DNA from: a virus
IMG/VR virus record: IMGVR_UViG_3300032736_000614
Location: 1-23,122 of that record
DNA: 23,122 nt
Reading direction: 5' to 3' (one strand)
The number at the start of each line of letters is the position of its first letter. Positions within the stretch are counted from its first letter, which is position 1. Shown here piece by piece: positions 2,836 to 23,122 of the stretch. Below the pieces are notes generated by a model, which was not told where the DNA came from, searched no databases, and saw nothing but the letters and a program-made list of their open reading frames with translations. Position numbers and translations under genes: made by a program.

Positions 2836-3702
2836 ATGAGTCTTAAAACGAAGGTTGGGGTGATCGGTCAGGGGTTTGTTGGGAAAACATATGCAGATTT
2901 TCTTGAAAAGAAGGAAGGGGTAGAGGTCATCCGATACTCTCTTGATGATCAGTTCATTCACAACAAGGAAGACATTAAAGATTGTGAAATTGTGCTGGTC
3001 GCGGTGCCGACCCCGACCCACAGAGCGTTCGGACAGGATCTTTCTGCGCTCAACGGGGCAATGGGAATCATCGGTCCTGGTGCGATCGTGATAATCAAAT
3101 CAACGGTGCTCCCGGGGACAACCAGGACATTATCAGAGGTGCATCCGGATAAAGTTGTCCTGTTTTCTCCTGAATTCCTGAGTGAGAAAACAGCAAAGAC
3201 TGACGTTGAACATCCTTTTTTAGTCATCATAGGAACCCCGTATTCTGATGACCTGAGCCTTGAGGCGGCACTTAAATTTAACAGCCTGCTTGGATATGCT
3301 GATGCAAAACCGAAAGTCTGCACATCTGATGAAGCGGAGCTTTTTAAGTATATTCACAACGTCAGCGGATACATCAACATCGTGATGTATAACATGTTTT
3401 CTGAGGTCGTTGATTGCCCGGGTTTTAAAGGGAACTGGGATTCGGTGAAGGAGTTAATTAAATCTGACCGCTGGCTTGCGCGTGAATATTCAGATGTTAA
3501 CCACAATGGTCACGGAGCCGGGGGAAGGTGTTTTATTAAAGACTTCGCGGCATTCCGGAGGTATGCAGACACCTGTGGATACGGACAGGGGTTGGATCTG
3601 AACAGCAGAAACCTACTTCATTCTATACAGATGAAGAACCACGCTCTCTTGAAAGCCTCACACAAAGACATTGAAATATTAAATGAGGTGGTTGGGCGAT
3701 AA
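2836..3702 (+). CDS. UDP-glucose/GDP-mannose dehydrogenase family protein, short form
   Basis: Enzymes of this family oxidise the C6 alcohol of a nucleotide sugar to a carboxylate using two NAD+, giving for example UDP-glucuronate. The sequence has the NAD-binding GxGxxG at residues 11-16 (GQGFVG), VAVPTPT at 55-61, KSTVLPGTTR at 88-97, SPEFLSE at 111-117, the central-domain Lys in LFKYIHN (K171) and the catalytic Cys in GGRCFIKD (C232). Length is 288 residues against roughly 390-450 for full enzymes; the whole C-terminal nucleotide-sugar-binding domain is absent. A ribosome binding site AAAGGTGA lies six bases before the ATG. It is sandwiched between terminase and portal-side genes, an unusual place for a metabolic gene. 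Substrate is unknown, and activity without the C-terminal domain is uncertain. Confidence 0.9.
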   Translation: MSLKTKVGVIGQGFVGKTYADFLEKKEGVEVIRYSLDDQFIHNKEDIKDCEIVLVAVPTPTHRAFGQDLSALNGAMGIIGPGAIVIIKSTVLPGTTRTLSEVHPDKVVLFSPEFLSEKTAKTDVEHPFLVIIGTPYSDDLSLEAALKFNSLLGYADAKPKVCTSDEAELFKYIHNVSGYINIVMYNMFSEVVDCPGFKGNWDSVKELIKSDRWLAREYSDVNHNGHGAGGRCFIKDFAAFRRYADTCGYGQGLDLNSRNLLHSIQMKNHALLKASHKDIEILNEVVGR

Positions 3703-3709
3703 ATGTTAA

Positions 3710-3751
3710 CTGTTGCACAACAGATGACTCAGGTATAATGTCCTGAGTCAT
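3710..3751 (+). promoter_or_regulatory. Promoter-like region inside two adjacent inverted repeats
   Basis: The gap after the dehydrogenase gene holds two perfect dyads. The first is CTGTTG at 3710-3715 and CAACAG at 3718-3723. The second is ATGACTCAGG at 3724-3733 and CCTGAGTCAT at 3742-3751, and its 8-base centre starts with a consensus TATAAT (3734-3739). A weak -35 candidate TTGCAC (3713-3718) lies 15 bases upstream, shorter than the usual 17. The second dyad covers the ATG at 3750, so it could act on DNA as an operator or in RNA as a hairpin hiding the start codon. There is no T-run, so a terminator is unlikely. Confidence 0.5.
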
Positions 3752-5656: not shown

Positions 5657-5657
5657 A

Positions 5658-8114
5658 ATGAATAGAAACCGAAAACGGAAAGCAAGATTTCGCAACCGGC
5701 TTGAATCGTGTTTTAACACAATTCAAACGAAGTTGCCAAAGTGGATCACAATTAAAAACGAAGCTGCCCAACCGGCTGCTGAGATTCTTATTTACGATTC
5801 GATCGGAACATCGTTTTGGGATGAGGGAATTGGCGCGAAGCAGGTTGCGGAGGAGCTGAAGCTGATCCCGAAGAACAGGGAAATCACTGTAAGGATCAAT
5901 TCTCCTGGTGGAAGCATCCACGAGGGGCTTGCTATTTACAACCTTCTGGCGACCCGCAGAGAGCACGTAAGTATTTACGTGGATGGTGTTGCGGCAAGCA
6001 TCGCTGCTGTGATTGCGCTGTCGGGAAAGACCCTGACGATGCCCAAGAACACTCTGTTCATGATTCATGATCCGTGGGGTCATGCCCAGGGGAACGCAGA
6101 AGAGCTTCGTAAGATCGCTGACACTCTTGATAAGCACAAGGATGTGATTGTCAATGTGTTTGCAGACAAGACAAAACTCGATCGGTCTGTCATTGAAAAC
6201 ATGATGACCGAGGAGACTTGGCTGACAGCCGATGAAGCGATGGAAAATAAATTTGCAGATATTGTCAGCAATGCTGTATCATATAATGCAATATTCGAGT
6301 TTGCGGATGTGATTGAGAATGCACCGGATCACATCAAGAGCAAATTGAAGAGTCAATACGGTGTAAATAGTAGTCAAGAAACACCCGCTGCTAACAGTGG
6401 TCAACAAACAGAACAAAGGCTAGTTATGAATCGAGAACAAATTGTGGCCCTGCTTAATAAGCACGGGATTAAATTTGCAGAAACAGCAACCGACGAAGAG
6501 CTGATTAATCTTTTGAGTGGAGCCATGGCTCCGAGCTCTCCCGCACCGGCACCGGCCCCGCAGAAACGGGCCATCACACCCACACCCGCCGCCGCCGCGC
6601 CCGTCGCTGCCGCCGCACCTACTGCTGTTGCGGATCCGGATCCGGATCCGGCATTTGATGTCCGGAACGAGTTCAAGAACAGTGTTGGCGAAATCAATCG
6701 CCTGAAGCAGCAGTATGAGGTTGTGAACGCACACTTCGAGAAGGAGCGTCGGACACGGATCGAGAATCAGGTTGATGAGTGCATCTCTGAAGACCGGATC
6801 CCGCAGCCGCAACGTGAGAAGTGGGTTAATCGAGTTCTCGCCGACGAGGCCGTGCTCGAGGATCTGCGGAACATGGAACCCCGTCCTCCTGGTGGTCAGG
6901 CTGTGGGGATCACGATCACGGGAGATTCCCCGAAGGACATCGAGAAGGGGTTGCTGAACCTCCGCAAACCGCTTAAGAGCTGGATGCGTGGTAATGCTGT
7001 GTCGGCTGAGTTGATTGGTTTCAACGCCAAGATGCTGGCGACCCAGATTCATGCGAACCGGAAGAAACTTGATGTTCTGTTGAACACCAACACGGTTGAT
7101 ACGGACTTGAAGCGGAATGTGATCCTCGCGGATCAGATGCGTGCCTTCAAGCGGAAACTGGTTTACTTGAGTGTGTTCACGACCCAGTTCCGGAACATTC
7201 CTCTGGACGGCACCAACAAGGTGACGGTTCCGTATTTCGATCTGGACACGAGCAGCTCGAAGGACTATTTGCAGGCAACCGGCTATGTGTTTGATGAAAA
7301 CACAGATGCGGGGTCTCGAACGGTCACGATCGACAAGCGGAAATACAAGTCCATGAACTTCAGTTCGGACGAATTCCGTCGTCAGCCGTATTTCGCTCCC
7401 AGCACCTCCCTGATGCTGAAAGCGGAACAGCTCGGTCTGGATGTGTGGCTCGACATCTTGAGCCTCGTGACGGTCGCGAACTACGGTGCGAGCGTTCTGG
7501 ACATTGAACCTGGATCCTCTGATGCCGATGACATCATCGACATCCAGCAGGCGTGTGATGATGCGGATTGGCCGGATATGGGCCGCGCATTAGTTCTGAG
7601 CACTGCTCACAAATCTGCCCTCTTGAAGGACGATTCTGTGAAGCACGCTCTGAACATCGGTTCCACGGATCCGATTCGTGCCGGTGCTGTCGGGCCTCTG
7701 TTCGGGTTTGAGACGTTCTTCAGCCCTCGGATCCCCACCAACAGTGAATACCTGAACGGTTTCGCTGTGCTGCCTCCTGCGGCGTTGGTCGTCACATCCC
7801 CGATCGTTCCGGCTCCTGGCGTTCGCGCTCAGTTGCTGAGTTACGATGTGGTTGTCGATCCTGAAACCGGAATCGCATTCGAGTACCGTTACTGGGGTGA
7901 TGCGACGGCTGATGAGGATCGCGAAGTGGTTGAGGTTAACTACGGCTACCTGGCCGGCAACGCCTCTGCGCTTAAACGGATCACGAACGGTGGTGAAACG
8001 CAGGAATCCAGCTCGAGCTCCTCACAGTCGTCTGCATCTTCTACGTCTGAGTCATCCAGTTCGTCCTCCAGCTCGAACTCGAGCTCGCAATCATCTCTGT
8101 CTTCTCAGGGTTAA
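5658..8114 (+). CDS. Fused ClpP-like prohead protease, scaffold region and major capsid protein with polyserine tail
   Basis: One 818-residue ORF carries what are usually two or three genes. Residues 40-207 are a ClpP-like (S14) protease: RINSPGGSIHEGLAIYN, catalytic Ser114 in DGVAASIAAVIALSG, His137 in MIHDPWG, and a candidate Asp near 162. Residues 257-440 look scaffold-like: a short helical start, a Pro/Ala-rich linker (293-334, with three tandem Asp-Pro) and a charged coil (335-375). Residues about 450-775 are capsid-like (MRAFKRKLVYLSVFTTQFRNIPL, VTVPYFDLD, SMNFSSDEFRRQPYFAPS, VLSTAHKSALL, FGFETFFSPRIP). Residues 784-818 are almost pure serine. In lambda the protease gpC also contains a nested scaffold, but the capsid gene is separate. 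A ribosome binding site AGAGGAAA precedes the ATG. No internal stop or frameshift separates the parts. Confidence 0.93.
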   Translation: MNRNRKRKARFRNRLESCFNTIQTKLPKWITIKNEAAQPAAEILIYDSIGTSFWDEGIGAKQVAEELKLIPKNREITVRINSPGGSIHEGLAIYNLLATRREHVSIYVDGVAASIAAVIALSGKTLTMPKNTLFMIHDPWGHAQGNAEELRKIADTLDKHKDVIVNVFADKTKLDRSVIENMMTEETWLTADEAMENKFADIVSNAVSYNAIFEFADVIENAPDHIKSKLKSQYGVNSSQETPAANSGQQTEQRLVMNREQIVALLNKHGIKFAETATDEELINLLSGAMAPSSPAPAPAPQKRAITPTPAAAAPVAAAAPTAVADPDPDPAFDVRNEFKNSVGEINRLKQQYEVVNAHFEKERRTRIENQVDECISEDRIPQPQREKWVNRVLADEAVLEDLRNMEPRPPGGQAVGITITGDSPKDIEKGLLNLRKPLKSWMRGNAVSAELIGFNAKMLATQIHANRKKLDVLLNTNTVDTDLKRNVILADQMRAFKRKLVYLSVFTTQFRNIPLDGTNKVTVPYFDLDTSSSKDYLQATGYVFDENTDAGSRTVTIDKRKYKSMNFSSDEFRRQPYFAPSTSLMLKAEQLGLDVWLDILSLVTVANYGASVLDIEPGSSDADDIIDIQQACDDADWPDMGRALVLSTAHKSALLKDDSVKHALNIGSTDPIRAGAVGPLFGFETFFSPRIPTNSEYLNGFAVLPPAALVVTSPIVPAPGVRAQLLSYDVVVDPETGIAFEYRYWGDATADEDREVVEVNYGYLAGNASALKRITNGGETQESSSSSSQSSASSTSESSSSSSSSNSSSQSSLSSQG
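6426..8114 (+). CDS. Nested in-frame product: scaffold plus capsid without protease (predicted internal start)
   Basis: Met257 of the fusion ORF is an ATG at 6426 preceded by AAAGG (6415-6419) with six bases between, a better ribosome binding site than several accepted genes here have. It lies exactly between the end of the ClpP-like domain plus a Gln/Thr/Ser-rich spacer and the start of the scaffold-like region. Translation from it would give a 562-residue scaffold-capsid protein free of protease. This mirrors lambda, where Nu3 starts inside gene C in frame. It would also solve the stoichiometry problem of a one-to-one protease and capsid fusion. The start itself is predicted, not proven. 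Confidence 0.45.
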   Translation: MNREQIVALLNKHGIKFAETATDEELINLLSGAMAPSSPAPAPAPQKRAITPTPAAAAPVAAAAPTAVADPDPDPAFDVRNEFKNSVGEINRLKQQYEVVNAHFEKERRTRIENQVDECISEDRIPQPQREKWVNRVLADEAVLEDLRNMEPRPPGGQAVGITITGDSPKDIEKGLLNLRKPLKSWMRGNAVSAELIGFNAKMLATQIHANRKKLDVLLNTNTVDTDLKRNVILADQMRAFKRKLVYLSVFTTQFRNIPLDGTNKVTVPYFDLDTSSSKDYLQATGYVFDENTDAGSRTVTIDKRKYKSMNFSSDEFRRQPYFAPSTSLMLKAEQLGLDVWLDILSLVTVANYGASVLDIEPGSSDADDIIDIQQACDDADWPDMGRALVLSTAHKSALLKDDSVKHALNIGSTDPIRAGAVGPLFGFETFFSPRIPTNSEYLNGFAVLPPAALVVTSPIVPAPGVRAQLLSYDVVVDPETGIAFEYRYWGDATADEDREVVEVNYGYLAGNASALKRITNGGETQESSSSSSQSSASSTSESSSSSSSSNSSSQSSLSSQG

Positions 8115-8123
8115 TCCCCTGAG
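8104..8123 (+). repeat. Inverted repeat across the capsid stop codon
   Basis: CTCAGGG (8104-8110) and CCCTGAG (8117-8123) form a perfect 7-base dyad with a six-base centre containing the TAA stop. The inner core CTCAGG-N8-CCTGAG is the same arrangement as in the dyad around the TATAAT at 3734. It could be an RNA hairpin at the end of the capsid cistron or a shared binding site. Confidence 0.45.
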
Positions 8124-8185: not shown

Positions 8186-8653
8186 ATGTTAAGATTCACA
8201 ATTGCGAGAAGGCACGGACAGGCGGCTTACGAGCTTCTTTACGATCCTTCTACAACGGGAGAGGTTCAGCGGAGAGCGTACAACGATCTCAGGGGGGTCT
8301 CTGCTCATCGGGTGTGGGCCGAATACCATGTGTGTATTCCGCAGGACACGCAGAACTTCAGTCCTACCGGAGCAGATCCGGAGACATCCAGTTCATCGGA
8401 ATCATCGAGCAGCAGTTCGTCTACTGAGGTGAATTCTGAAACATCAAGCTCTTCGAGCTCGTCCAATTCGTCGTCGAGCAGCTCGTCGTCGAGCAGCGGA
8501 AGTTCCGCGTCGTCTTCGTCGCAGTCGTCATCTTCGTCTTCGTCGCAGTCGTCATCTTCGTCTTCGACTGAAGTTTCGGAAACGTCGTCTTCGTCGTCTT
8601 CGTCTTCGACTGAAGTTTCGGAAACGTCGTCTTCGTCGTCGCAGTCGGTGTAA
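8186..8653 (+). CDS. Serine-rich protein following the capsid gene
   Basis: The protein has 155 residues. Residues 1-62 form an ordinary, probably folded part (MLRFTIARRHGQAAYELLYD..., then RAYNDLRGVSAHRVWAEYHVC). Residues 67-155 are nearly all Ser with Thr, Glu, Gln and Val, including the recurring unit S-T-E-V-S-E-T. AAAGG at 8174-8178, seven bases before the ATG, is a good ribosome binding site. Strong hairpins lie on both sides (8136-8168 and 8671-8702), so the gene may have its own expression level. In lambda-like order a head decoration or head-completion gene stands here; a capsid-associated surface protein is therefore plausible, but no family is recognised. Confidence 0.85.
   Translation: MLRFTIARRHGQAAYELLYDPSTTGEVQRRAYNDLRGVSAHRVWAEYHVCIPQDTQNFSPTGADPETSSSSESSSSSSSTEVNSETSSSSSSSNSSSSSSSSSSGSSASSSSQSSSSSSSQSSSSSSTEVSETSSSSSSSSTEVSETSSSSSQSV
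8521..8638 (+). repeat. DNA-level tandem repeats in the serine tract
   Basis: A block starting GCAGTCGTCATCTTCG recurs with a 24-base step (8521 and 8545). A longer block centred on CTTCGACTGAAGTTTCGG recurs with a 42-base step (14 codons; copies near 8562 and 8604). These in-frame repeats allow the serine tract to change length by slippage or recombination without breaking the frame. Confidence 0.7.
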
Positions 8654-9169: not shown

Positions 9170-9170
9170 A

Positions 9171-10840: not shown

Positions 10841-11680
10841 ATGAACTTAGGACACGTAGAAGCGCACGAAAAGCTCACAGCCCGTCTGTTTTATAAGCCG
10901 ACTGGACAAGCTGGTTACACCGATGCCGGGAACGTCAAGGAATACGCAGATGCGACGACAAGAAGTCTTGTGACGCACATGCGTGCTGAAGACGGTTTCA
11001 GGGTCGTGAACGATGAACAGGTGAACGAGGAGCATCCTGCGTTCACATTTCTCCTGACAGAGAGAGATGTTCCTCAAGAAAAGCTCATCAGTCTCGCCCG
11101 TCGAGAGACCGATGTGACGCAATCTTTCAACGAAGGTGTTACGGCGACGCTCGAGGCCGTTGCGGTAAGTCAATGGTTTGCCATCGGCGCATACAACATC
11201 GAAAATGTTGCCGTGACGGCAAGTGAAAGCGGAGCCCTCGTTGAGGGGACCGATTATCAGATCGACAAAGAGAATGGTCGACTGTTCGTCGAGCCTTCAG
11301 CTGGAGTCAGCGATGGAGAGGATCTGACGGTCACGTTTGACCAGGGGGCCGTGACGTTTGAGCGTTACACATCCCAGAAAACGCCACTGTTTCAGGGGAA
11401 CTTCATCATTGAAGAGCACAATCAGTATTCGCAGGTTTTCCTTCGTCGACTGACCTTCACCGGAACGATCAATGTCATTGAGTTCCCGTCTCAGACTGGA
11501 GAATTCGCCACATGCCGCGTCAAGGTGACGCCGAACTCCGTTGTGACAATTGACAAGCGTCCGGCAGCGTCTACCCTTAGCGCACCTACGTATACTGCAG
11601 AGGGTGCCGCAATGAGCAGCTCCAGTTCCTCGAATAGCTCATCCAGTTCAGAGAGCAGCAGCAGCAGCAGCAGCTCGTAG
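10841..11680 (+). CDS. Major tail tube protein with C-terminal polyserine
   Basis: The protein has 279 residues, comparable with lambda gpV (246), and lies directly before the frameshifted tail chaperone and tape measure, which fixes the tail-tube role fairly well. Features include RLFYKPTGQAGYTDAGNVKEYADA near 15-39, typical of tube proteins that state the offset of a measured quantity, LTERDVPQEKLISLARRETDV near 73-93, and a TDYQIDKENGRLFVEP segment near 147-163. Residues 259-279 are serine with single Asn and Glu. In gpV an Ig-like domain projects from the tube at this end; here the polyserine takes its place. AAGGA lies about six bases before the ATG. If the tail is displayed outward it would place serine tracts along the entire tail. 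Confidence 0.85.
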   Translation: MNLGHVEAHEKLTARLFYKPTGQAGYTDAGNVKEYADATTRSLVTHMRAEDGFRVVNDEQVNEEHPAFTFLLTERDVPQEKLISLARRETDVTQSFNEGVTATLEAVAVSQWFAIGAYNIENVAVTASESGALVEGTDYQIDKENGRLFVEPSAGVSDGEDLTVTFDQGAVTFERYTSQKTPLFQGNFIIEEHNQYSQVFLRRLTFTGTINVIEFPSQTGEFATCRVKVTPNSVVTIDKRPAASTLSAPTYTAEGAAMSSSSSSNSSSSSESSSSSSSS

Positions 11681-12265: not shown

Positions 12266-14871
12266 TGGCATCTCAGACAGTAACGATCACGTTAAACGCC
12301 TTGGCCCAAAACCAAGGCTTTAACAGTTTTAAGTCCGGGCTGAACGGTGTAAAGACCGCAGCGATGGACGTTGACGATGTACTAAAGCGCACAGCACTCA
12401 GTGTTGGTGCGCTTGTTTCGTCTGCGGTTGGTATCGGGGCAATGGTCTCTGGCTTCAAAAGCCTTATTGCAACAGGTATCAGGTTCAACGCAACGGTTGA
12501 AAGTGCTAGGTTGGGAATCGCAGCAGCGGTCAAGACGTTCAACCCGAAAGAGGTTAAAGATTTTGCCACAGCTCTAAATATTGCCGACACGGCGGTAGAG
12601 AAATTAAAGAAATCTTCTCTAGAGACGGCAGCGAATTTCAGCGAGCTCGTAACAGGCTTGCAGTCAGTTAGTGGTCTCGCGACATCAGCAGGCATTGCTC
12701 TTACGGACCAGGTTGACCTCATTGTAATGATGAGTCAGTCGGTCGCGGCAGCAGGTCTTAATCGGGATCAGTTGGTTCAGGAGACAAGAGCTCTCCTGTC
12801 AGGAAACATCACCGTCCGATCGGCAACGGTTGCGACGATGTTGGAAATCAGTGACAAGGAAATGGCAGCTGCCCGAAGGACCGGCACTGTCATGGATTTG
12901 CTGCGCGGTAAAATGAAGGATTTTATCGCTGCCGGTAAGATCGGTATGACGAATTACACCCAGGCATTGTCAAATTTGTCTGAGGTGTTTGAGCAAAGAA
13001 TTGGGGCAGCGATGCTTCCAATGTTCAATGCATTAAAAGCAACCTTCCTATCATTTACAAAGGAATTGTTTAAAGCAGATCTGGCTTCTGCGTTTACTGG
13101 TATATCAGGAGCTTTGGTGTTGGTTATTCAGTCATTATCATATCTCGGCATTTCTGGGATAAAGCACATAAAAGGTCTGACGGCAGCTGTTGAGGTTTTA
13201 TCTGCTGCGTTTGCTCTACTGGGCATCAGGATAGCAGCTTCGCTCTCGTTGATGGGAGTAAGGTTTCTTCTCCCGATAATCGGTGGATTCCTGTCGTTGA
13301 GCATTACGATCGGACAGGTCTCGACAGCGTTTGGGTTTGCATCTGGATTAGGTGCTGTTTTGAAGTCCCTGTCTGCCGTTTCCCTTGTATTGTTCGCAGG
13401 ATTTGCCGGGTGGAAAGCTGGTCGGCTAATCGGTGAAATACAAATCCTTGGTGCCAGCATAAACGACATCTTGCGGGTGAACATCCTCCTGGCAATGAAA
13501 GCCTGGGAAGAGTTCAAGCTTTCGATCGGTGGAGGGTCTTTGGATCAGCTTGCTGTGATTCAGAAATCCATAAAGGATTCATTTTCCAAGCAATCTGAGA
13601 ATTCTGGGAAGAAGATTCCGAAATTATCAGGTACAGGATTAAGTAAATCAGACTCAAAAGCGTTGCTTGAAGCGAGAAGGGCCGAGCTTGAACTTGATTT
13701 GAAGTTTGCTGATTTGGATGAGAAGCGTCTCAGATCAGAGGGGTTGCTTATTGTCATCAGGGGGCAGGGCTGGGAACTGACAGCCAGGACCGTAAGAGGC
13801 ATAATTCAGGAGAGGGATGCGATCTTAAGGGTGCTCGATGCAAAGAAAGCCCTGATTGAGCAAAAGGTAAAAGACAGGCAGGATGCAAAGAAGGATGGAG
13901 TTCTTGGTGAAGCTGAAGCAAGGAAGCTTGAGATTGAAGATGAGCAAGAGCTTCTGTCGCTACGGATAGAGCGTCTGAATTTGCACAAAGAAGTCGCCAA
14001 GGCGACCCTTGAGACGACTGAGAGGCTCCTGAAGGCCCGTGAAGCCGTCGCGGACGAAACCTTCATGGGAAGGCTCACGACACAGATCAAGACCTTCGGA
14101 GAAGAGTTTGAGCATGTCGGGGCCAGGGTCGCGGATGTTTTGGTTGATGGTGTCAGGAGCGCGATTGATGCCGTCGCCTACGGTCTGTGGGCCGTCATCG
14201 ACGGGACCAGGACATGGGGAGATGTGTTTCTCCAGGTTGGACGACAGATCATCTCGCAACTGATCGCTATCGCGATTCAAGAGCTGATAGTCGACAGGAT
14301 CAAAAAGGCAGTCATGACAGCCTGGTCAGCATTTCAGTCGACCATGCGAGCAAAGGATGTCGTTGAGGCGAACGCGACGGAGATCGCGAAAACTCCTGCG
14401 CTTGCCACAAACGCAACGCTCGCCTCCATTGGATCGTGGGGCATCGCGGTTGCGATCGGTGTAGCGGCCATTGCGGCCATCATGGCTTCGTTTGGTGCCT
14501 TTGAAGCCGGTGGTGTTGTGGCAGGTGGCAAGCAGGCGATTGTCGTCAACGAAAGCGGCCCTGAAGCGGTTTTGAATTCTAGAGCGACAGCAATGCTCGG
14601 TCACGACACGATCAACAAGCTTAATTCTGGTGTCATGGGTGCCATGTCCTTGGAATCCAGAATGGCTTCCGGTTTCGGTGGATCCTTCCAAGATTCCGGA
14701 TCCGTTACCTCTGGGTCCGTTTCCGGATCCGGCCAGGATCTGAAGGTCAGCTTTGTTTTGGTTGATTCAAGAAACTCTCAGGCGGCACGGGATTTCATCA
14801 CCTCATCTGAGGGAAGGGTTATTGTTGCGGAGGTTGTGAGAGACCAAAGAACTGAAGTAGGTGTTTCATGA
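12265..14871 (+). CDS. Tail tape measure protein
   Basis: This is one of the longest ORFs here (868 residues), placed after the frameshifted chaperone. The tape measure sets tail length and is released during DNA entry. Residues 1-60 resemble the common start of tape measures (SQTVTITLNALAQNQGFNSF, then GLNGVKTAAMDVDDVLKR). Hydrophobic helices lie near 38-66, 275-400 and 722-747. Charged coiled-coil stretches lie near 461-495 and 535-600. The end shows the typical EAGGVVAGGKQAIVVNE followed by SGPEAVLNSRATAMLG near 746-783. At about 1.5 angstrom per residue the tail would be close to 130 nm, by the known rule for siphoviruses. The start overlaps the GT stop and the end overlaps the next start (ATGA). 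Confidence 0.92.
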   Translation: MASQTVTITLNALAQNQGFNSFKSGLNGVKTAAMDVDDVLKRTALSVGALVSSAVGIGAMVSGFKSLIATGIRFNATVESARLGIAAAVKTFNPKEVKDFATALNIADTAVEKLKKSSLETAANFSELVTGLQSVSGLATSAGIALTDQVDLIVMMSQSVAAAGLNRDQLVQETRALLSGNITVRSATVATMLEISDKEMAAARRTGTVMDLLRGKMKDFIAAGKIGMTNYTQALSNLSEVFEQRIGAAMLPMFNALKATFLSFTKELFKADLASAFTGISGALVLVIQSLSYLGISGIKHIKGLTAAVEVLSAAFALLGIRIAASLSLMGVRFLLPIIGGFLSLSITIGQVSTAFGFASGLGAVLKSLSAVSLVLFAGFAGWKAGRLIGEIQILGASINDILRVNILLAMKAWEEFKLSIGGGSLDQLAVIQKSIKDSFSKQSENSGKKIPKLSGTGLSKSDSKALLEARRAELELDLKFADLDEKRLRSEGLLIVIRGQGWELTARTVRGIIQERDAILRVLDAKKALIEQKVKDRQDAKKDGVLGEAEARKLEIEDEQELLSLRIERLNLHKEVAKATLETTERLLKAREAVADETFMGRLTTQIKTFGEEFEHVGARVADVLVDGVRSAIDAVAYGLWAVIDGTRTWGDVFLQVGRQIISQLIAIAIQELIVDRIKKAVMTAWSAFQSTMRAKDVVEANATEIAKTPALATNATLASIGSWGIAVAIGVAAIAAIMASFGAFEAGGVVAGGKQAIVVNESGPEAVLNSRATAMLGHDTINKLNSGVMGAMSLESRMASGFGGSFQDSGSVTSGSVSGSGQDLKVSFVLVDSRNSQAARDFITSSEGRVIVAEVVRDQRTEVGVS

Positions 14872-16409
14872 GTGTCTATTCGGTTCTCTGGGATCCTCCT
14901 ACCTATTACCCTAGTCTTGGGTGTGTTGATCAGGTTAATAGTTGGAGGTGGGAACCAGACAACGGATCCGGTGCCTCGAGGGCTGCTCGGTGGCCTAGCT
15001 CTGGCAATTTAGAAGAGAATCCGAACTCAATATTCGAGTCAGCGTTGATCGATTGGTGGGCCGAGAACCTGATCGATGACTTCATCGCTTACGAGGTTCC
15101 GCATTCTGGATATTCGCTTTATTGGGATTTGGGAGAAGCTTCGGACGGTTGGAATGTCCATGTCCTATACGACTTTGATTCCTATCAGTCCTACACCGGT
15201 GCCGGATGGGAGATGCACCTGGCCTATTGTCCGGATGACGGAGAGTTGACCAGCGAATCCAGCAGTAGCTCGAGTTCTACGGAGGTTTCTTTAACGTCTT
15301 CGAGCAGCAGTTCAAGTTCGACGGCTCTTTCTTACACCTCGACATCTCACAGCAGTCTCTCGACAGAAGCTTCCTATACTTCGTCAAGCTCATCAACTGA
15401 GGCGAGGGAATCTTCCAGTTCAAGTTCGACGGTTGTTTCCTTCACATCAAGCTCGAGCAGCATTGGTCTGGAGAGCAGCACATCAGTCAGCAGTCAAAGC
15501 TATTCGTCTGATTCGAGATCGAGCTCCTCGACAGAGGACTCCTATACGTCAGAATCAAGTTCCTATTCCTCGATGACCAGCTCATCGAGTTCTTCAGAGT
15601 TAATCGGATCGAGTTCGTCTCATTCCGGATTGTATTTTCTGAGGAGCACCTCTTCCCTGAGTTCTCTCGGGCTATCTGAATCCAGCTCTTCAAGCTCATC
15701 AACGGTAGAAGAAGAGGCTCTTCCGGTGATCGATGGTCATTACGTGCTTCCCCATCAGGCAAACTGGGCCTCGACACCTTCTGTTGAGCGTCAGTGGAGG
15801 TCTGGGGTCACGGCGGCTCTGACGGGCAAGGAGGATCGGACGAGCATCAGGGCTGCGGCATGGATAAAAATGAAGTATCAGGTGCTTCCTTATAACCATG
15901 ACGAACGCGCCAGGTTCGATTACAGGATGAAAGCCGCAATGAAGGCCGGGAAGGTGGCGGTTCCGAGATGGGGGAAGGGTGTCAGCATTGCCTCGGCTGT
16001 TGTCGCGGGAGACACGGTCTTGACGCTGAACAGAACATCTCACGGTTTTTCAAACGGGCAATATGTGTTCGTTCAAAGTTCGACGCCGACCGAATACATG
16101 TTTTGGGACATTTGCCTGATCGTTTCTGTTGATCGGTCCGTCATAACAGTCGCGACACCTCTTGATCATGGATATCCGGAAGGAACGATGGTTTGGCCGA
16201 TACTGTATGGAAGGCCGATACCGGAAGACTTCACGATCATGAATAAATCTCGCAATCAGTATTCGGTCAGTTTACAATACGATCAGCGTCAGGTGAATGC
16301 CTACGCATCAGAAGATTTCGAGTCCTACGACGACGGAGTGATTGTTTCTTCTCTGTCTGGTGGGATCGGATGGGAAGGGCCATGGGTAATAGGAGCCATG
16401 GCAGCTTGA
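14868..16409 (+). CDS. Tail-tip or baseplate protein with central serine-rich region
   Basis: The protein has 513 residues in three parts. Residues 1-127 are Trp- and Tyr-rich, without known motif (LWDPPTYYPSLGCVDQVNSW, then FESALIDWWAENLIDDFIAYEV). Residues 129-279 are mainly Ser with units such as S-T-E-V-S-L-T and S-T-E-A-S-Y-T. Residues 284-513 look folded: VERQWRSGVTAALTGKEDR, VPRWGKGVSIA, VVAGDTVLTL, FSNGQYVFVQS, then PILYGRPIPEDFTI. That is a pattern of phage tail proteins of the region after the tape measure. The very end (EDFESYDDG, then SGGIGWEGPW) resembles the start of a LamG/concanavalin-like domain, but the ORF stops there. Coupled to the tape measure gene by ATGA. Role assigned by position. 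Confidence 0.8.
   Translation: MSVYSVLWDPPTYYPSLGCVDQVNSWRWEPDNGSGASRAARWPSSGNLEENPNSIFESALIDWWAENLIDDFIAYEVPHSGYSLYWDLGEASDGWNVHVLYDFDSYQSYTGAGWEMHLAYCPDDGELTSESSSSSSSTEVSLTSSSSSSSSTALSYTSTSHSSLSTEASYTSSSSSTEARESSSSSSTVVSFTSSSSSIGLESSTSVSSQSYSSDSRSSSSTEDSYTSESSSYSSMTSSSSSSELIGSSSSHSGLYFLRSTSSLSSLGLSESSSSSSSTVEEEALPVIDGHYVLPHQANWASTPSVERQWRSGVTAALTGKEDRTSIRAAAWIKMKYQVLPYNHDERARFDYRMKAAMKAGKVAVPRWGKGVSIASAVVAGDTVLTLNRTSHGFSNGQYVFVQSSTPTEYMFWDICLIVSVDRSVITVATPLDHGYPEGTMVWPILYGRPIPEDFTIMNKSRNQYSVSLQYDQRQVNAYASEDFESYDDGVIVSSLSGGIGWEGPWVIGAMAA
15252..15704 (+). repeat. Serine-rich low-complexity coding tract
   Basis: About 150 codons of Ser/Thr with scattered Glu, Tyr and Val form the middle part of the tail-tip protein. 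AGC, AGT, TCG, TCA, TCC and TCT are all used, so the amino acid run is not a simple DNA microsatellite. The unit S-T-x-x-S-x-T appears about six times. Confidence 0.8.
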
Positions 16410-16441: not shown

Positions 16442-17383
16442 ATGAGACAGGAAATTCCACAAGCGGAACACAAAGACGGAAATGACGACCGAATTTCAAG
16501 GTGGGGTCGTTCGCGCCATGATGGATACCGTAAATTCAAACACGGATTCCAGCAACCCCCGCCATTGTTATTCACTCAAGATCATCATCCTTTGTGGTTA
16601 GGTGACATCTACCGTGGAAGATCTGCGTTTTTAATCGCAGGAGGACCATCTTTCTCGAAGATCGACAAAGACAAATTGAATCTCCCGGGTGTCATGACCA
16701 TGGGAATCAACAATTCTGTCAGGACGTTTAGGCCGAGCATGTGGATAAGCGTTGACAGTCCGGATCACTGGATCCGTTCAACGTGGCTGGATCCAAGGAT
16801 CCAGAAGTTCGTTCCGATAGACATGGCGTCTAAGTTTCTTTTCAACTCTGATACGTGGAAGTTCATGGAGCAACGTGTTGGAGATTGTCCGAACGTGGTT
16901 TATTTTAAGAGAAACGAACACTTCCGTGCAAAGCAGTTTCTGTGGGAGGATTGTTTCAATTGGGGGAATCACAAGGATCACGGAGGCGGCAGGTCTGTTA
17001 TGCTGTTGGCTATCCGGATGCTTTACGTGCTTGGATTCAGGAAGGTTTATTTGTTGGGTGTGGATTTCAAAATGGATCGAAGACACAAATATCATTTCGA
17101 TCAAGACAGGCACAAGGGGTCGATTCGTGGCAACATGTCAACATATGAGAAGCTCAACAAATGGTTGGCAGAGCTTCGGCCACTGTTTGAGGAGCAAGAT
17201 TTCCACGTCTATAACTGTAACCAACAGAGCAACCTAAAGGCTTTCGACCATGTAAGCTTTGACGATGCGATGGATGACGTACATTCTCACATGGATTTCG
17301 TTGATGTTTCAAAAGAGAGAACCCAAGGTCTTTATGACATCAAGACAGAAGATAAAAAGAAAGGTGTCGGGAATGGTCAATAA
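16442..17383 (+). CDS. DUF115/MptE-like protein, possible glycosyltransferase-related enzyme
   Basis: The protein has 313 residues. After a basic, poorly conserved-looking start (1-50), residues 57-110 read YRGRSAFLIAGGPSFSKID, then GVMTMGINNSVRTFRPSMW and ISVDSPDHW, the Rossmann-like 'IAGGPS...N...D' arrangement of DUF115 and related proteins (motility accessory factors and sugar-transfer or nucleotide-sugar enzymes). Further on are FRKVYLLGVDFKMD and KYHFDQDRHKGSIRG, then LFEEQDFHVYNCN and SNLKAFDHVSFDDAM, a tail often found in this group. Such proteins handle nonulosonic or pyrophosphate-linked substrates, but the exact reaction cannot be read here. No strong ribosome binding site. The 3' end overlaps the glycosyltransferase start at 17373, suggesting joint expression. 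Confidence 0.75.
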   Translation: MRQEIPQAEHKDGNDDRISRWGRSRHDGYRKFKHGFQQPPPLLFTQDHHPLWLGDIYRGRSAFLIAGGPSFSKIDKDKLNLPGVMTMGINNSVRTFRPSMWISVDSPDHWIRSTWLDPRIQKFVPIDMASKFLFNSDTWKFMEQRVGDCPNVVYFKRNEHFRAKQFLWEDCFNWGNHKDHGGGRSVMLLAIRMLYVLGFRKVYLLGVDFKMDRRHKYHFDQDRHKGSIRGNMSTYEKLNKWLAELRPLFEEQDFHVYNCNQQSNLKAFDHVSFDDAMDDVHSHMDFVDVSKERTQGLYDIKTEDKKKGVGNGQ

Positions 17384-18923
17384 TTCTTCTGGTGTTCTAT
17401 ATTTTAACAGGGGGACTCAATGCATACCGAGGTTGCTTGTTTCTGCCAGGTCGTTGCGGAAGCATTACAAAGGAAATGCGTCTATCGTCTGTGAAGAGGA
17501 GTCTCTTCCGGAAGCGTGGTGTCTGAATCAGCTGGCAGAGCTTAAAATTGATGTCATCAAGGTTCCGATGGGTCACCAGAACATCTTGGTTGCAAAATCA
17601 AGGATCTGGAAGCACAGCCCCTACGGGCACACGATGTTCATCGATTCCGACACGCTGATCGTCGGATCGATCGATCAGTTCTTTGAAATGATTAAAGAAC
17701 ACGGCCTGGTCGTTACCAATTTCAACAATTGGGGGACAAGCCACGGAAGAATGTATCGAAGGATCATCCAGTGGGAACCGATCGCCAAAGACCTTGTCGA
17801 GAAAGCCGTGAAATACGGGAAAGCGATCAACACTGGTGTGTTCGGTTGGAAAGCAGGCAACCCAGCGATGATCGATTACCAGGAGCTGACGCTGCTGGGC
17901 TTTCAAGCGAAACCGAGGGTTCATCGAAAGATTTTGGACGAGACGGCGATGCAGCTTGTCATTACCAAGCACAAGCACACGTTGACCGGTCCGGAATGGA
18001 ATGTTTCCGGTTTGTATGGCGAGAAGATGGAGCAGAAGATTCTTCATTTCCACGGGCACAAGCACTGCCGGGACAGCGAGACATGCGCCAAGTGGAAAGC
18101 AGGCTATCTGGATCTCATTGACTCAATCAAATCGATCCCAGGGGCACTGGAGGCTTTAGGGCAGGGTGGTCTGGACAGAACGATATCGCTCTGGCTGAAG
18201 ACAACGAATCGCCGAAGGAGAGATCTGACGATCGTCACCGCTGTGAATCCCAAATACGTCGATCGAGCTCGGAAAAACTTCAAGAGATGGATGTCAACCC
18301 CTGGGCTTAAGGATCAAAGATTCTTGGTATTCGTCAACGGCTTTGAAGACATCAAAAGCAGAAGGTTTTTAAATCATCCGAACGTGAAGGTTGTCCGTTG
18401 GCAATACGGATTTGATGATGCGAACGACAGGGAGACGATGCTCGCGTCTTTCATTCTCGGTGTTGCGGCACAGGTTAGGACGAAATATTGGATGAAGCTC
18501 GATTTCGATGCGACACCGAAACGAAAGTGGTTTGAATTCCCAGCCTATGAGGGGAAGACGATCGTCAGTCACCGGTGGGGTTTCACGAAGTTAAAAGGGG
18601 AGGAGAACATAAAGAGACACTGGTTCCATCGTCTCGATGACCTGTTCTCTCCTAAAAAACCGTTCTTCAAGCGTGAATATGATCCCGTGAAAGACTTCAA
18701 GGTTCGGCACGGAGGCAGGAGCCAGGACAAGTTGCCGATGCGTTTCGGATCGTTTTGTCACATTGAAAAGACAGAGTTCACAAAAAGAATTGCAAATCAC
18801 ATTGAGGTCGATGGATCCGGAAGACTACCTATTCCGAGCCAAGACACAATTTCGTGGTATTGTTCTTCATTGTGGAACGAGGCAGTGGAACTTGTTAATA
18901 TGAAAAAATGGTTCAAACCATAA
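17373..18923 (+). CDS. Glycosyltransferase with two GT-A-like domains
   Basis: I choose the ATG at 17373 (516 residues), with AAAGG eight bases upstream, over an in-frame ATG at 17259 that would run 125 bases into the previous gene. Residues 1-250 resemble a GT8-type glycosyltransferase: LYFNRGTQCIPRLLVSARSL at the start, KSRIWKHSPYGHTMFIDSDT near 75-94 with the metal-binding D91-S-D93, NTGVFGW near 155, and a final FHGHKHC. Residues 284-516 form a second unit starting DLTIVTAVNPKYVDRARKN, with YWMKLDFDATP (D377-F-D379), IVSHRWGFTK and a C-terminal SQDTISWYCSSLW. The DxD motifs bind the metal and sugar nucleotide. Donor and acceptor are unknown. Tandem transferase domains suggest two successive sugar additions. 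Confidence 0.85.
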   Translation: MVNNSSGVLYFNRGTQCIPRLLVSARSLRKHYKGNASIVCEEESLPEAWCLNQLAELKIDVIKVPMGHQNILVAKSRIWKHSPYGHTMFIDSDTLIVGSIDQFFEMIKEHGLVVTNFNNWGTSHGRMYRRIIQWEPIAKDLVEKAVKYGKAINTGVFGWKAGNPAMIDYQELTLLGFQAKPRVHRKILDETAMQLVITKHKHTLTGPEWNVSGLYGEKMEQKILHFHGHKHCRDSETCAKWKAGYLDLIDSIKSIPGALEALGQGGLDRTISLWLKTTNRRRRDLTIVTAVNPKYVDRARKNFKRWMSTPGLKDQRFLVFVNGFEDIKSRRFLNHPNVKVVRWQYGFDDANDRETMLASFILGVAAQVRTKYWMKLDFDATPKRKWFEFPAYEGKTIVSHRWGFTKLKGEENIKRHWFHRLDDLFSPKKPFFKREYDPVKDFKVRHGGRSQDKLPMRFGSFCHIEKTEFTKRIANHIEVDGSGRLPIPSQDTISWYCSSLWNEAVELVNMKKWFKP

Positions 18924-18927
18924 CACC

Positions 18928-20613
18928 ATGAACTTAAAAGATAAGTTCAGAGCGTTACTCGGTGACAACGCGCATCAATCACCGGATACTATTAAAAGTC
19001 TTCTGTCTTCAGCAAACGTCTACGCGGCTTCTGTTGATGGAAAAATTCCGGCCCTGTCTGATGGGATTGTACAGACAAAACTCTATGGGATGAACCACGG
19101 TGGGTCTGCCATCGTCGCCATTGAAGCGGACGAGGCCGGTGCGCTCCATGTGGAGCCGATCGGGACCGGATCTTTCGGGGAGCTGATCACAGCGGGGTTG
19201 AATCCTCGGGTGCAGATCGATGCCATCCATGGGTTGCTTGATACGGATGTGGAGACGTTCAGCGCGACCGGTGGGGCCGTGGCTGCGACGAACAATATGT
19301 TCACCTGCACGACCGGGACGAATGTCGGTGGCTACGGGGTGATCCGGTCGAAGCGGTTGGCGCGGTATCGTGATGGGCAGGGCTTCAGGGCGAGGTTCAC
19401 GGCGATGTTCTCGACCCCGGCTGCGAATTCGTTGCAGATGGCTGGTCTGTTGTCTGCTGATAACGGGCTCAACTTTGGAAACAACGGAGTTCCCTTCGGC
19501 ATCATGCGACGCATCGCGGGGGCCGCTCAGATCGTGAGGTTGACGATCACCAATGGCACGACAGGGGCCGGGGACATTGCGGTGACGCTCAACGGTGTGG
19601 CTTTTGCGGTTGCGGCAGCTGGTGCTCTTTCGACAACCGCAACTGCGGAGCTGATCGCGGAGAGCGGGGTGTTCACCGGGTGGACACATGCAACTTCGCC
19701 GACGAGCGACGGTGCGACGGTGACTTTCATTCAGAGCACTCCTGCGGCGGCGGCGGGAGCCTACACGGTGGCCGACATCGGTGTGGTGGGGACCATTGCA
19801 ACGCTACAGACCGGAGTGGCGAACGACGACACGACTGGGTTCGTGGCGCAGACAGCGTGGAACGTGGATGTGATGGACGGGAGCAACTCTGCCAGCAATC
19901 CTTCAGGCATCCTGCTCGATCCGACGAAGCTGAACGTCTATGAGATCGTCTATGCGTTCCTCGGGGCAGGTCATATCAACTGGAGGATCATGTCCAGTAG
20001 CGGACATTTCGTGTCTGTGCATCACACGATGTATCCGAACACGGCGATCATTCCGAATCAGGCGAATCCAACCTTCCGCATCGCCTGGACAGCGGCTTCG
20101 CTTGGGAGCGTAACCGCATTGACCGTGCAGGGAGCCAGCGGAGCTGTTTTCATCGAAGGGCTGTCGGTTGCATCTCGTGATCCCTATGGAGCCAAAGCCA
20201 CGCTGACAACTGGCACGACGGAGTATGTGGCCTTGGCGTTGCGGGTGCGGGGTGAGCTTACGAGTAAGATCAGTTTGCGGGAGGTGTTTCCGATCACGGT
20301 GACTGCGGGGGTTGAGACATCCAACCGGGTGGTGAACATCTCCATCTACATCAATCCCACGATATCCGGTACGGTGAATTGGAGTTACGTGGATCAGGCG
20401 AGGTCCGTGGTGGAGAAGGCGACGCCAACCACCATAACGCCGACTGGTGGGAGGTTCGTGGCCGGGAGCATTGCGGCGACGGGTGCGGCTTCGTCCATTG
20501 ATCTGTCGAAACTGGATCTGCGGTTGGAGCCTGGGGATGTGCTGGTGATCGCGGCGGCGACGGTGACGAATAGCACCAGCACGGCCTTCACGATAAACTG
20601 GCAGGAAATCTAA
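18928..20613 (+). CDS. Tail fibre or receptor-binding-type structural protein
   Basis: The protein has 561 residues, rich in Thr, Ala, Gly and beta-prone segments, without membrane or enzyme motifs. The start (MNLKDKFRALLGDN, GIVQTKLYGMNHGG) is followed by a beta-rich body. Residues about 205-300 hold an Ig-like-looking insert (VRLTITNGTTGAGDIAVTLN, then GVFTGWTHATS and GATVTFIQST). The C-terminus has TEYVALALRVRGELT, then VNISIYINPTISGTVNW. From about 19,090 the gene is visibly GC-richer than its own first 150 bases and its neighbours, as in swapped receptor-binding segments. The gene stands between two glycosyltransferase genes; no good ribosome binding site. Its stop overlaps the next start (TAATG). 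Structural role likely, exact part unproven. Confidence 0.75.
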   Translation: MNLKDKFRALLGDNAHQSPDTIKSLLSSANVYAASVDGKIPALSDGIVQTKLYGMNHGGSAIVAIEADEAGALHVEPIGTGSFGELITAGLNPRVQIDAIHGLLDTDVETFSATGGAVAATNNMFTCTTGTNVGGYGVIRSKRLARYRDGQGFRARFTAMFSTPAANSLQMAGLLSADNGLNFGNNGVPFGIMRRIAGAAQIVRLTITNGTTGAGDIAVTLNGVAFAVAAAGALSTTATAELIAESGVFTGWTHATSPTSDGATVTFIQSTPAAAAGAYTVADIGVVGTIATLQTGVANDDTTGFVAQTAWNVDVMDGSNSASNPSGILLDPTKLNVYEIVYAFLGAGHINWRIMSSSGHFVSVHHTMYPNTAIIPNQANPTFRIAWTAASLGSVTALTVQGASGAVFIEGLSVASRDPYGAKATLTTGTTEYVALALRVRGELTSKISLREVFPITVTAGVETSNRVVNISIYINPTISGTVNWSYVDQARSVVEKATPTTITPTGGRFVAGSIAATGAASSIDLSKLDLRLEPGDVLVIAAATVTNSTSTAFTINWQEI

Positions 20614-21380
20614 TGCGACGGAAACCAAGAATCACAATAGCAATTCAATGTCACAACTTTCAAAGAAGGTTGTGTTGGATGCTTTCGAGTTTAGCGCAAC
20701 AGGCTAGCAGTTATCTGTTGCGCGTTGACATTGCCCATGTTCGAGGTAACGGAACACCGAGTACGGAGAAGCTGCTGGCTGCGTTCTCTGATCGGTTGAG
20801 TCTGAAAAGCTCGACATGGGCAGACTTTGAGACGTTCACGAAGCGTGGAATGGTTAGGAACAGGCAGATAGCTGAATGCGAAACTGAATGGATATTATTC
20901 GGGGATGCGGACATGGTTTATCATCCGCATTATTTCCGACGGCTTTCGGTCGAGCTCGGCAGGAACCATCAGGACGCACCGTATTTCATCAGCTCTGGAA
21001 GGATGAGTAATCCGAAAGATCTTACTGATGAATTGGTGTTTAAACACGCGAATGAACACGGAGATGAGATAAAGGATGCTTTTGATAAGTCAAAACATCT
21101 TGCGATGAGGAGAATGGGGAATGTTGGGGCCGGGTTTTCTCAGATCATAAACATGAGACACGCTCCGCACGGTGGGTTTTATGTTGATGAGAAGCGTAAC
21201 TGGGATTTCAACTGGGAAGAACGGGGAAGCAATCCCAGAAGCGATATTCAGTTCCGGTGGCGAATGGTCAGGGCATCCGGTCCTCGGTTTCAGCTTCCAA
21301 GATGGTATACGAGAAACGCAATCCATTTGAATCACGATCGCGATCCGGAGGTTGGAACAAACATTAAAACACAGAGATGA
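20613..21380 (+). CDS. GT2-like glycosyltransferase
   Basis: The protein has 255 residues. The start RITIAIQCHNFQRRLCWMLSS is a GT-A nucleotide-binding strand and helix. A KRGMVRNRQIAECETEWILF segment (78-96) leads into GDADMVYHP with D98-A-D100, the DxD that binds metal and sugar nucleotide in family GT2. NVGAGFSQIINM (near 169-180) and WEERGSNPRSDIQFRWRM may line the acceptor side. Its length is at the short end for GT2, and no membrane helix is seen, so it probably works in the cytoplasm, consistent with acting on virion proteins during assembly. AGGAAA lies four bases before the ATG, which overlaps the fibre gene stop. Donor sugar and acceptor are not known. Confidence 0.82.
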   Translation: MRRKPRITIAIQCHNFQRRLCWMLSSLAQQASSYLLRVDIAHVRGNGTPSTEKLLAAFSDRLSLKSSTWADFETFTKRGMVRNRQIAECETEWILFGDADMVYHPHYFRRLSVELGRNHQDAPYFISSGRMSNPKDLTDELVFKHANEHGDEIKDAFDKSKHLAMRRMGNVGAGFSQIINMRHAPHGGFYVDEKRNWDFNWEERGSNPRSDIQFRWRMVRASGPRFQLPRWYTRNAIHLNHDRDPEVGTNIKTQR

Positions 21381-22030
21381 TGACTGAAGTTAAAAAGATC
21401 AAAGACCTGATCCCGTTCTTTGCTGAAAACAAAAAACGTCTGTTGGATTTTGACTGGTTGGCTAAAGCCATCCAGCCTCATTGCAAATATAAGTTCCTTG
21501 GGTGGCGCGGAAGCCGTCTTAGGATAATCCAGCACCCAACAGAGTTTGCCAGGTTCTTAATTTTCATGGCACGCAACAACGTGCGTTCGTATCTTGAAAT
21601 CGGAACGAGCACCGGTGGATCGTTCATGACCGTCGATGCATATCTGAGAGCTGCCGTTGATGGATATGAGCGGTCTGTTGGTTATGACAGGACATCAAAG
21701 CTTCGTGATTTCGACGAATACAAGAAAGCTGCAGGGACGATTGAATTCCGACACGAGAACTCGTCCAGAATACGTCTGAGGTCTGAAAGGTTTGATATGT
21801 CGTTCATTGACGCACGGCACATCAAGGCTTGGGTTTTGAAAGATTTCCAAAAGGTAAAGGACAACTCACGGTTCGTTGGGTTTCACGACATCGCACTTCG
21901 CCCACCATGCAGTGTCAAAGAGGCATGGGGAGAAATAAAAACTGGAAAGCGTTCGTTTGAGTTCATTGAAACCGGGATCGCAGAAGATTGCAGATGTGGG
22001 ATTGGCGTTATTGATATGGAAGGAAGTTAA
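21377..22030 (+). CDS. Class I SAM-dependent methyltransferase
   Basis: The protein has 217 residues. Motif I is SYLEIGTSTGGSF (71-83), the SAM-binding glycine loop. FDMSFIDARHIKAWVLKDF lies at the position of the acidic post-II segment, followed by SRFVGFHDIALRP and VKEAWGEIK. This order is as in sugar or small-molecule O-methyltransferases of the Methyltransf_24/cephalosporin-hydroxylase-like group. The start overlaps the glycosyltransferase stop; a second ATG directly follows at 21380. The stop shares bases with the next start (TAATG). Next to glycosyltransferases such enzymes usually methylate a sugar hydroxyl; that is an inference here. Confidence 0.82.
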   Translation: MMTEVKKIKDLIPFFAENKKRLLDFDWLAKAIQPHCKYKFLGWRGSRLRIIQHPTEFARFLIFMARNNVRSYLEIGTSTGGSFMTVDAYLRAAVDGYERSVGYDRTSKLRDFDEYKKAAGTIEFRHENSSRIRLRSERFDMSFIDARHIKAWVLKDFQKVKDNSRFVGFHDIALRPPCSVKEAWGEIKTGKRSFEFIETGIAEDCRCGIGVIDMEGS

Positions 22031-23122
22031 TGGCTTCTTATTCATCTGCTGGATTTTCGAGCCAAGGCTTCTCTACAACGAGCGTTTCCAGCGAGGGACG
22101 CACGCTAACGAGTCAATCGTCTGAAGGTTTTTCTGATTCAAGTAGGTCGAGCCAAGGGTTTTCTGCATCAAGCCAAGGGTTCTCGTATTCCAGCCAGGGA
22201 TTGACGAGCCTGGAATTCTCTACAACGAGCGTTTCCAGCGAGGGACGGACGTTGACAAGTCAGTCTTCTGAAGGTTTTTCTGCATCAAGTCAATCGTCTT
22301 TAGGATTTTCTGAATCAAGCCAAGGGTTTTCCGCTTCAAGCCAAGGATTTTCTGCATCGAGTCAGGGGTTTTCTGAAACGAGTGTTTCTTCTTTAGGGCA
22401 ATCGACCACCAGTCAGAGTTCTCTTTCAAGTCTTGGATTTTCTGAATCGAGCACATCTCAGAGTCAATCCTCTGTTGGGTTTTCTGATAGTTCCAAATCA
22501 TCTCTCGACTTAACATCGAACAGCTCTGCCAGTTCTCGGAGTTCGACCTCGTCATCGACAGCTGTTTCATACACATCAAGCAGCTCGAGCAGTAGCTCGT
22601 CTTCGTCTACTGCCGTTTCATTCACATCAAGTTCAAGTTCGTCATCAAGCATAAGCTCTGTTGGTTTCAGCTCTAGTTCATCGTCGAGCTCAAGTTCCCT
22701 GGGGACAAGTTCGAGTTCATCGTCGAGTTCAAGTTCGTCGTCTCTCTCTTCTGTCGGGTTTTCTGAAAGCTCTGCATCCTCGCAGTCTTCACAGGGGTTG
22801 TCTGAATCGAGCACATCAGTAAGCTCATCGTCAGTTGGATTTTCAGACAGTTCAAAATCATCCTTAGAATTCAGTTCAAGTAGTTCGAGCAGTCTTAGCA
22901 GTTCATCTTCCTCATCGACAGCCGTCTCTTTAACGTCAAGCAGTTCGAGCAGCAGCTCGTCGTCATCAACCGCCGTCTCGTTGACATCCAGCAGTTCGAG
23001 CAGCAGCTCTTCATCATCGACCGCAGTATCGCTGACATCGAGCAGCAGTTCCTCGACCGCAGTATCGCTGACATCCAGCAGTTCGAGTAGTAGCTCTTCA
23101 TCGCCGTCATCGAGTTCGAGCA
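22030..23122 (+). CDS. Serine-rich repeat protein, 3' end outside window
   Basis: An ATG at 22030 with GGAAGG (22018-22023) six bases upstream opens a frame that has no stop for 364 codons and runs off the right edge. It starts MASYSSAGFSSQGFSTTSVS. About residues 1-150 are built from a short unit close to S-S-Q-G-F-S-A, with Phe every seven or so residues. After that come long serine runs broken by S-S-V-G-F-S and by S-T-A-V-S-x-T units (x = Tyr, Phe or Leu). There is no signal peptide or membrane helix. All six serine codons are used. The make-up recalls glycosylated serine-rich adhesins, and its place after transferase genes suggests it could be a glycosylated fibre. Function unproven. Confidence 0.82.
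   Translation, partial: MASYSSAGFSSQGFSTTSVSSEGRTLTSQSSEGFSDSSRSSQGFSASSQGFSYSSQGLTSLEFSTTSVSSEGRTLTSQSSEGFSASSQSSLGFSESSQGFSASSQGFSASSQGFSETSVSSLGQSTTSQSSLSSLGFSESSTSQSQSSVGFSDSSKSSLDLTSNSSASSRSSTSSSTAVSYTSSSSSSSSSSSTAVSFTSSSSSSSSISSVGFSSSSSSSSSSLGTSSSSSSSSSSSSLSSVGFSESSASSQSSQGLSESSTSVSSSSVGFSDSSKSSLEFSSSSSSSLSSSSSSSTAVSLTSSSSSSSSSSSTAVSLTSSSSSSSSSSSTAVSLTSSSSSSTAVSLTSSSSSSSSSSPSSSSS
22069..22280 (+). repeat. Segmental duplication inside the serine-rich gene
   Basis: A 32-base stretch at 22069-22100 recurs exactly at 22216-22247 (147 bases, 49 codons apart). The following 33 or so bases are also similar in both copies, ending CTGAAGGTTTTTCTG. The copies remain in frame, so the protein unit (FSTTSVSSEGRTLTSQSSEG) is duplicated with only synonymous differences. 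Confidence 0.85.

Follow-up and report, generated by a model that had tools for sequence, protein, structure and literature searches.

The late genes of an uncultured phage encode five proteins with long serine-rich tracts as well as a set of sugar enzymes, and we infer from the sequence that these enzymes probably O-glycosylate the Ser tracts of the phage's own head, tail, and fibre proteins. The window, meaning the whole stretch of DNA that was analyzed (23,122 nt), is a 23-kb linear viral contig and represents a fragment of the phage. A sugar-coated virion is the most likely outcome of the enzymes because unrelated phages, which share almost nothing else, combine these enzymes with tails of this kind. 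The most economical account would be a mobile module that glycosylates virions at polyserine acceptors. A broader proposal is offered tentatively and with considerable doubt: a horizontally mobile module, in which polyserine strips on head, neck, tail, and fibre proteins are paired with a cassette undetected in deposited phages, may turn virions of several unrelated phage groups into mucin-like glycoparticles by way of a glycan that is acidic and, variably, methylated or sulfated.

To our knowledge, few cases of covalent phage-virion glycosylation have been documented. A defined enzyme set that recurs with a defined low-complexity acceptor would allow glycosylated virions to be predicted from sequence by a rule that can be tested, and the set in the window could serve as a minimal system for O-glycosylating polyserine in a laboratory host. 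Polyserine tracts, which annotation pipelines usually ignore, would also gain a possible function.

Serine tracts of the late proteins

The left part of the window has genes for TerS, TerL (GpA type), a UDP-glucose dehydrogenase (UGD), the portal, a ClpP-protease/capsid fusion, and head completion, followed by the tail tube, a chaperone, a tape-measure-sized ORF, and the tail-tip protein. The right end has a DUF115-like gene, a two-domain glycosyltransferase (GT), a structural protein, a GT2, a methyltransferase, and a polyserine ORF. The preliminary description had named five late proteins with long Ser-rich tracts; all five are borne out at the places it gave, with the correction that the tract of the 14868 tail protein is internal, not terminal.

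5658..8114, + strand: ClpP-type head maturation protease fused to the major capsid protein (PF00574, 5.3e-31; phrog major head protein, 7.2e-16)
8007-8105, + strand: polyserine C-terminal tail of the capsid fusion, residues 784-816 of 818 aa
8186..8653, + strand: small post-capsid protein, N-domain of ~58 aa and polyserine C-terminal tail (nt 8360-8647, residues 59-154)
10841..11680, + strand: major tail (tube) protein (phrog_807, 7.5e-12)
11615-11677, + strand: polyserine C-terminal tail of the tail tube, 21 residues (259-279)
14868..16409, + strand: tail assembly/tip protein (phrog_1082, 9.5e-20)
15252-15701, + strand: Ser/Thr tract of the 14868 protein, 150 residues (129-278)
22030..23122, + strand: polyserine ORF, fibre-like or candidate acceptor, running off the contig, its start overlapping the methyltransferase stop; tracts at residues 28-55, 77-104, and 115-364 (most of 28-364)

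Serine content is 50-90% within the tracts, against 4-10% elsewhere in most of the tract genes. The tracts have 256 TCN and 127 AGY serine codons, while the TCN:AGY ratio in the rest of these genes is 356:154, and all six Ser codons are in use. Since no single silent change interconverts TCN and AGY, tracts with this mixture look maintained as protein sequence. The mixed codons also rule out a codon-repeat artefact or simple microsatellite as the origin of the tracts; tandem DNA duplication is found in them only at 8468-8640 and 22069-23075.

In the relative L015, the capsid fusion and tail tube stop about where the tails of the window begin; its small post-capsid protein carries a tail rich in Pro/Ala in place of polyserine. 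In L006, whose terminase is closely related (60%), both the capsid fusion and the post-capsid protein have polyserine tails; the tails therefore appear to come and go on a core that stays constant. The N-domain of the 8186 protein resembles 8720 of the window, 14903 of L006, and 7958 of L015. The neighbours 8186-8653 and 8720-9169 look paralogous in their N-domains, with a polyserine tail on one and a Lys/Ala/Pro-rich tail on the other. BLAST with the polyserine ORF as query returned no matches, as is expected from low-complexity filtering. The sequence SSSSTEVSETSSSS is a candidate acceptor peptide for purified transferases.

Verrucomicrobia phage P8625, at 22% identity, is among the best matches of the terminase (991-2832) in deposited phages and hints faintly at a Verrucomicrobia-like host; no terminase relative was found in genome_contigs.

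Sugar enzymes and the proposed pathway

The sugar genes, and the structural gene that separates two of them, are as follows.

2836..3702, + strand: short UGD, 288 aa (PF03721, 1.8e-15; PF00984, 1.1e-8; phrog_9148, 2e-33; NDP-sugDHase, 3.4e-28)
16442..17383, + strand: DUF115/PF01973, GT42-like putative glycosyltransferase (PF01973, 1.9e-4, under cut-off; phrog_4603 alpha-2,3-sialyltransferase, 1.9e-9)
17373..18923, + strand: two-domain GT-A enzyme (by profile and fold comparison; no Pfam match)
18928..20613, + strand: virion structural protein between transferase genes (phrog_1645, 3.3e-13)
20613..21380, + strand: GT2-type glycosyltransferase with DAD motif (PF00535, 2.1e-4, marginally under cut-off)
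21377..22030, + strand: Methyltransf_24, putative sugar O-methyltransferase (PF13578, 1.7e-5, at or below the Pfam cut-off)

Overlapping starts and stops of structural and sugar genes, another feature noted earlier, are real: DUF115/GT overlap by 11 nt, 18928/GT2 by 1 nt, GT2/methyltransferase by 4 nt, and methyltransferase/polyserine ORF by 1 nt. Phage-encoded glycosyltransferases sit among the late structural genes of the window, a position expected of virion protein glycosylation. The UGD gene lies between terminase and portal, apart from the remaining sugar genes, and L006 has unrelated ORFs there.

UGD has a Rossmann N-domain and a central domain with a GGRCFIKD motif, while its 288 aa have no HMM match to the UDP-binding C-terminal domain. 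The DUF115-like protein is 42-51% identical to its homologues in four other phages carrying the cassette (carriers), and its top Foldseek matches are CstII and CstI (CstII E 4.6e-4, TM-score 0.31-0.37, with a medium-confidence model). In the two-domain GT, the N-domain is GT8-like (FIDSDT, HFHGHKH) and the C-domain has KLDFDAT; DSDT and HFHGHKH are conserved and correspond to the DxD and HxGxxK-type motifs of GT8. The enzyme has weak glycogenin profile matches (0.002-0.07), homologues in carriers with E-values down to 2e-89, and Foldseek matches to LARGE1, GlyE, glycogenin, and chondroitin polymerase at low whole-chain TM-scores. The folds of the two-domain GT and the DUF115-like protein match enzymes with Ser-rich or Ser/Thr acceptors, which favours the glycosylation reading; the low TM-scores and the generic nature of GT-A folds count against it. 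The GT2 is TarS/TarP-like (TarS 1.1e-5 with the family profile). The methyltransferase homologue in L128 has an additional match to RMNT_CmcI.

In the proposed pathway, Ser/Thr tracts on the capsid, capsid-adjacent protein, tail tube, tail tip, and fibre-like protein would be dense O-glycan acceptors, and cytoplasmic transferases co-expressed with them would assemble the glycan while the late genes are being expressed. Starting or extending the chains would fall to the two-domain GT-A enzyme and the GT2, the GT42/PF01973-type enzyme would add a sugar, perhaps an acidic one, UGD is likely to supply UDP-glucuronate, and the methyltransferase would decorate the product, which may serve for shielding or adhesion. 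The order of steps, the identity of the sugars, and the purpose of the glycan are what we infer from the enzymes encoded. The preliminary description had the glycan as acidic and perhaps methylated. Acidity is supported indirectly by UGD in two of the seven carriers (the window and L128), by the GT42-like PF01973 protein, and by a sulfotransferase in the L118 cassette; methylation has a single basis, the methyltransferase common to the window and one other carrier (L128). Most carriers have neither UGD nor the methyltransferase, which counts against the proposed pathway. So does the absence of NeuB from every carrier; if a nonulosonic acid were used, its donor would have to come from the host. 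Among carriers, CTP_transf_3 is found only in the L128 record.

Recurrence of tracts and enzymes in other phages

Viral contigs were searched from the side of the tracts, blind to the enzymes, with a DNA pattern for Ser/Thr with the interruption STxxSxTS. Seven contigs matched, with true polyserine ORFs in L118 (40 kb) and L122 (110 kb); the other five (L116, L117, and L119-L121) have no polyserine ORF and were rejected as tract carriers. Both true-tract records have homologues of the window transferases adjoining. In L122 these are DUF115 (E 9e-83), the two-domain GT (2e-89), and GT2 (6e-40); in L118 the two GT domains are separate ORFs, a GT2 is also present, and the contig end cuts the cassette. 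Searching from the side of the transferases, with the GT N-domain as query, gave L123 (8 kb, uninformative), L126 (173 kb), L127/L129 (114/62 kb), and L128 (85 kb). DUF115 is close to both GT domains in L126, L127/L129, and L128, and two of these three informative new groups, L127/L129 and L128, have polyserine proteins. L126 has the cassette and no polyserine tract in 173 kb, which counts against the glycosylation reading. Its Thr-rich tail was considered as a substitute acceptor and rejected, because 21 of the 1505 control ORFs have comparable S+T-rich stretches. When the two-domain GT or DUF115 alone served as query in a locus search, no viral contig matched.

When the carriers were compared by all-vs-all blastp (Ser tracts masked), the window had only DUF115, GT, and GT2 in common with L122 and only the GT domains with L118. 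With L126 and with L127, it had DUF115, both GT domains, and GT2 in common and no other gene. With L128 it shares all five enzymes (DUF115, GT, GT2, UGD, and methyltransferase) and sugar genes only. L118 is akin to L122, and L126 to L127; there are therefore four lineages that have hardly anything, if anything, in common beyond the sugar set. The co-occurrence of tracts and transferases that the preliminary description expected in other contigs is found in L118, L122, L127/L129, and L128 and fails in L126. Its claim that the enzymes act on the phage's own tracts gains from this recurrence in otherwise unrelated phages, L126 excepted, while the attachment itself is presumed.

The position of cassette and tracts varies among carriers. 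The L122 cassette lies between capsid and head-tail adaptor genes, and its tracts form the tail of a head-tail adaptor and also occur within a LamG/baseplate-like protein. Tracts are spacers between LamG-like lectin domains in L118 and lie alongside an FG-GAP propeller in L128. The STxxSxTS interruption is common to the window, L118, and L122, although for the latter two it was the search key; SLGVS-like interruption units are present in L127, a record not picked by its tracts. The L118 cassette also has sulfotransferase and epimerase-like genes. The sulfotransferase-like gene (L125:12115-12810) lies inside the sugar cassette and suggests that the L118 phage may make a sulfated glycan.

Several neighbouring genes were observed in passing. 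In the L122 record, L134:9240-9920, with a polyserine tail, is beside a paralogue without the tail, L134:9947-10264 (57% identity over 106 residues). The L127 record has two related polyserine proteins, L146:6665-8854 and L147:8445-9476, the rest of which is trypsin-type protease-like by eye and has no Pfam match. A gene with an Ogg-HhH DNA-glycosylase fold is near the cassette start in L127 (8002-8619) and L126 (6122-6730), and L128:6071-7741, near the cassette, is an ORF with squalene-hopene-cyclase/pectate-lyase toroid-like similarity.

Controls comprised 41 other phage records (1.27 Mb, 1520 non-overlapping ORFs), and a tract was defined as at least 12 Ser in 20 residues of a non-overlapping ORF. 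Tracts are present in six of seven cassette records and one of 41 controls (Fisher p 3.9e-6, the records not being independent); the single positive control is L006, the truncated close relative of the window. By lineage, the four lineages against controls give 3.4e-5, or 1.1e-3 with one lineage scored negative. In a first count over six-frame ORFs, inflated by the shadow ORFs kept in it, tracts appeared in 10 of the 41 controls (p 0.004); the non-overlapping-ORF rule replaced this count after its result was seen. The controls are mostly relatives of the window terminase or capsid genes, and because this sample is non-random the p-values are guides only. Among relatives from the terminase, tail-tube, and capsid searches, only L006 has tracts. 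The DUF115 and GT profiles have no match in 43 non-carrier records, and tblastn with DUF115, the two-domain GT, and their homologues has none in 50,697 deposited phages.

Alternative readings and known systems

The tracts could be unmodified flexible linkers or tails in phages whose sugar genes are otherwise employed, both being common in the same ecological group. Depolymerase domains of Saccharophagus are separated by polyserine linkers (PMC2386152), the long Ser runs of L118 likewise separate carbohydrate-binding (LamG-like) domains, and L126 has the cassette without tracts. In the window, however, most tracts are C-terminal tails of structural proteins associated with transferases, not linkers, and the exact enzyme set together with tracts would be unlikely to arise by chance in four otherwise unrelated lineages; this explanation is considered unlikely.

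If the cassette instead altered the surface of the host cell, as in superinfection exclusion, the weak likeness of the GT2 to exopolysaccharide and teichoic-acid transferases would be accounted for, and phages are known to bring about seroconversion through their glycosyltransferases. Among the window genes scanned, though, none was recognized as a flippase or membrane sugar-lipid transferase, the sugar genes lie within the late structural string, and the GT N-domain has no confirmed match in genome_contigs at the sensitivity of that scan, so that such a role is improbable. A shade less probable again is glycosylation of phage DNA (hypermodified bases), with the tracts incidental. Virus glycosyltransferases can hypermodify DNA (Pyle 2024, as cited in PMC12619734), the gene directly upstream of the cassette in L126/L127 has an Ogg-HhH DNA-glycosylase fold, and a thymidylate-synthase family gene is present in the L122 record. 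The window and L128 have no such neighbours, the cassette is among structural genes in the window and L118/L122, and the link with polyserine would be left unexplained. A thymidylate synthase in L127/L129 was rejected as a weak match in a frame with stops.

Glycosylation of the virion by the module would work like serine-rich repeat protein (SRRP) and mycobacteriophage virion glycosylation, with homology to either not found where tested. Mycobacteriophages offer a precedent, with glycans at the C-termini of capsid and tail tube (PMC12619734). Che8-type mycobacteriophages (Freeman et al. 2023, as far as it is cited in PMC12619734 and PMC11256854) have, like the window, phage-encoded glycosyltransferases and C-terminal capsid and tail-tube acceptor positions, but homology to DUF115 and the two-domain GT was not detected among the 50,697 phages, and the window has long polyserine tracts on five proteins and a larger enzyme set that includes UGD and the methyltransferase. 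In SRRP glycosylation (PsrP/Fap1) of Gram-positive bacteria, a Ser-rich acceptor is also encoded beside several transferases, and the GT8-like enzyme of the window resembles in fold GlyE, a GT8 that extends glycans on the Ser-rich PsrP (PMC12656782). The candidate acceptors in the window differ in being virion proteins, and neither the Gtf1/Gtf2 initiating pair nor SecA2/SecY2 is among the Pfam matches of the window genes scanned, the contig being a fragment.

PF01973 is the central catalytic domain of Maf flagellin transferases, is Cst-II-like, and modifies Ser/Thr (PMC11339370). The window protein is alike in its PF01973 similarity and Cst-II-like top fold, and Maf performs Ser/Thr O-glycosylation; however, the score of the window protein is under the Pfam cut-off, the Maf N- and C-terminal domains were not recognized in it, the carriers have no NeuB, and its putative acceptor is not flagellin. 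Ig-like domains are displayed on phage capsid, tail tube, and fibres as optional extensions (PMC9022992); the tracts of the window extend the same classes of virion protein, but are disordered Ser and tied to a transferase set.
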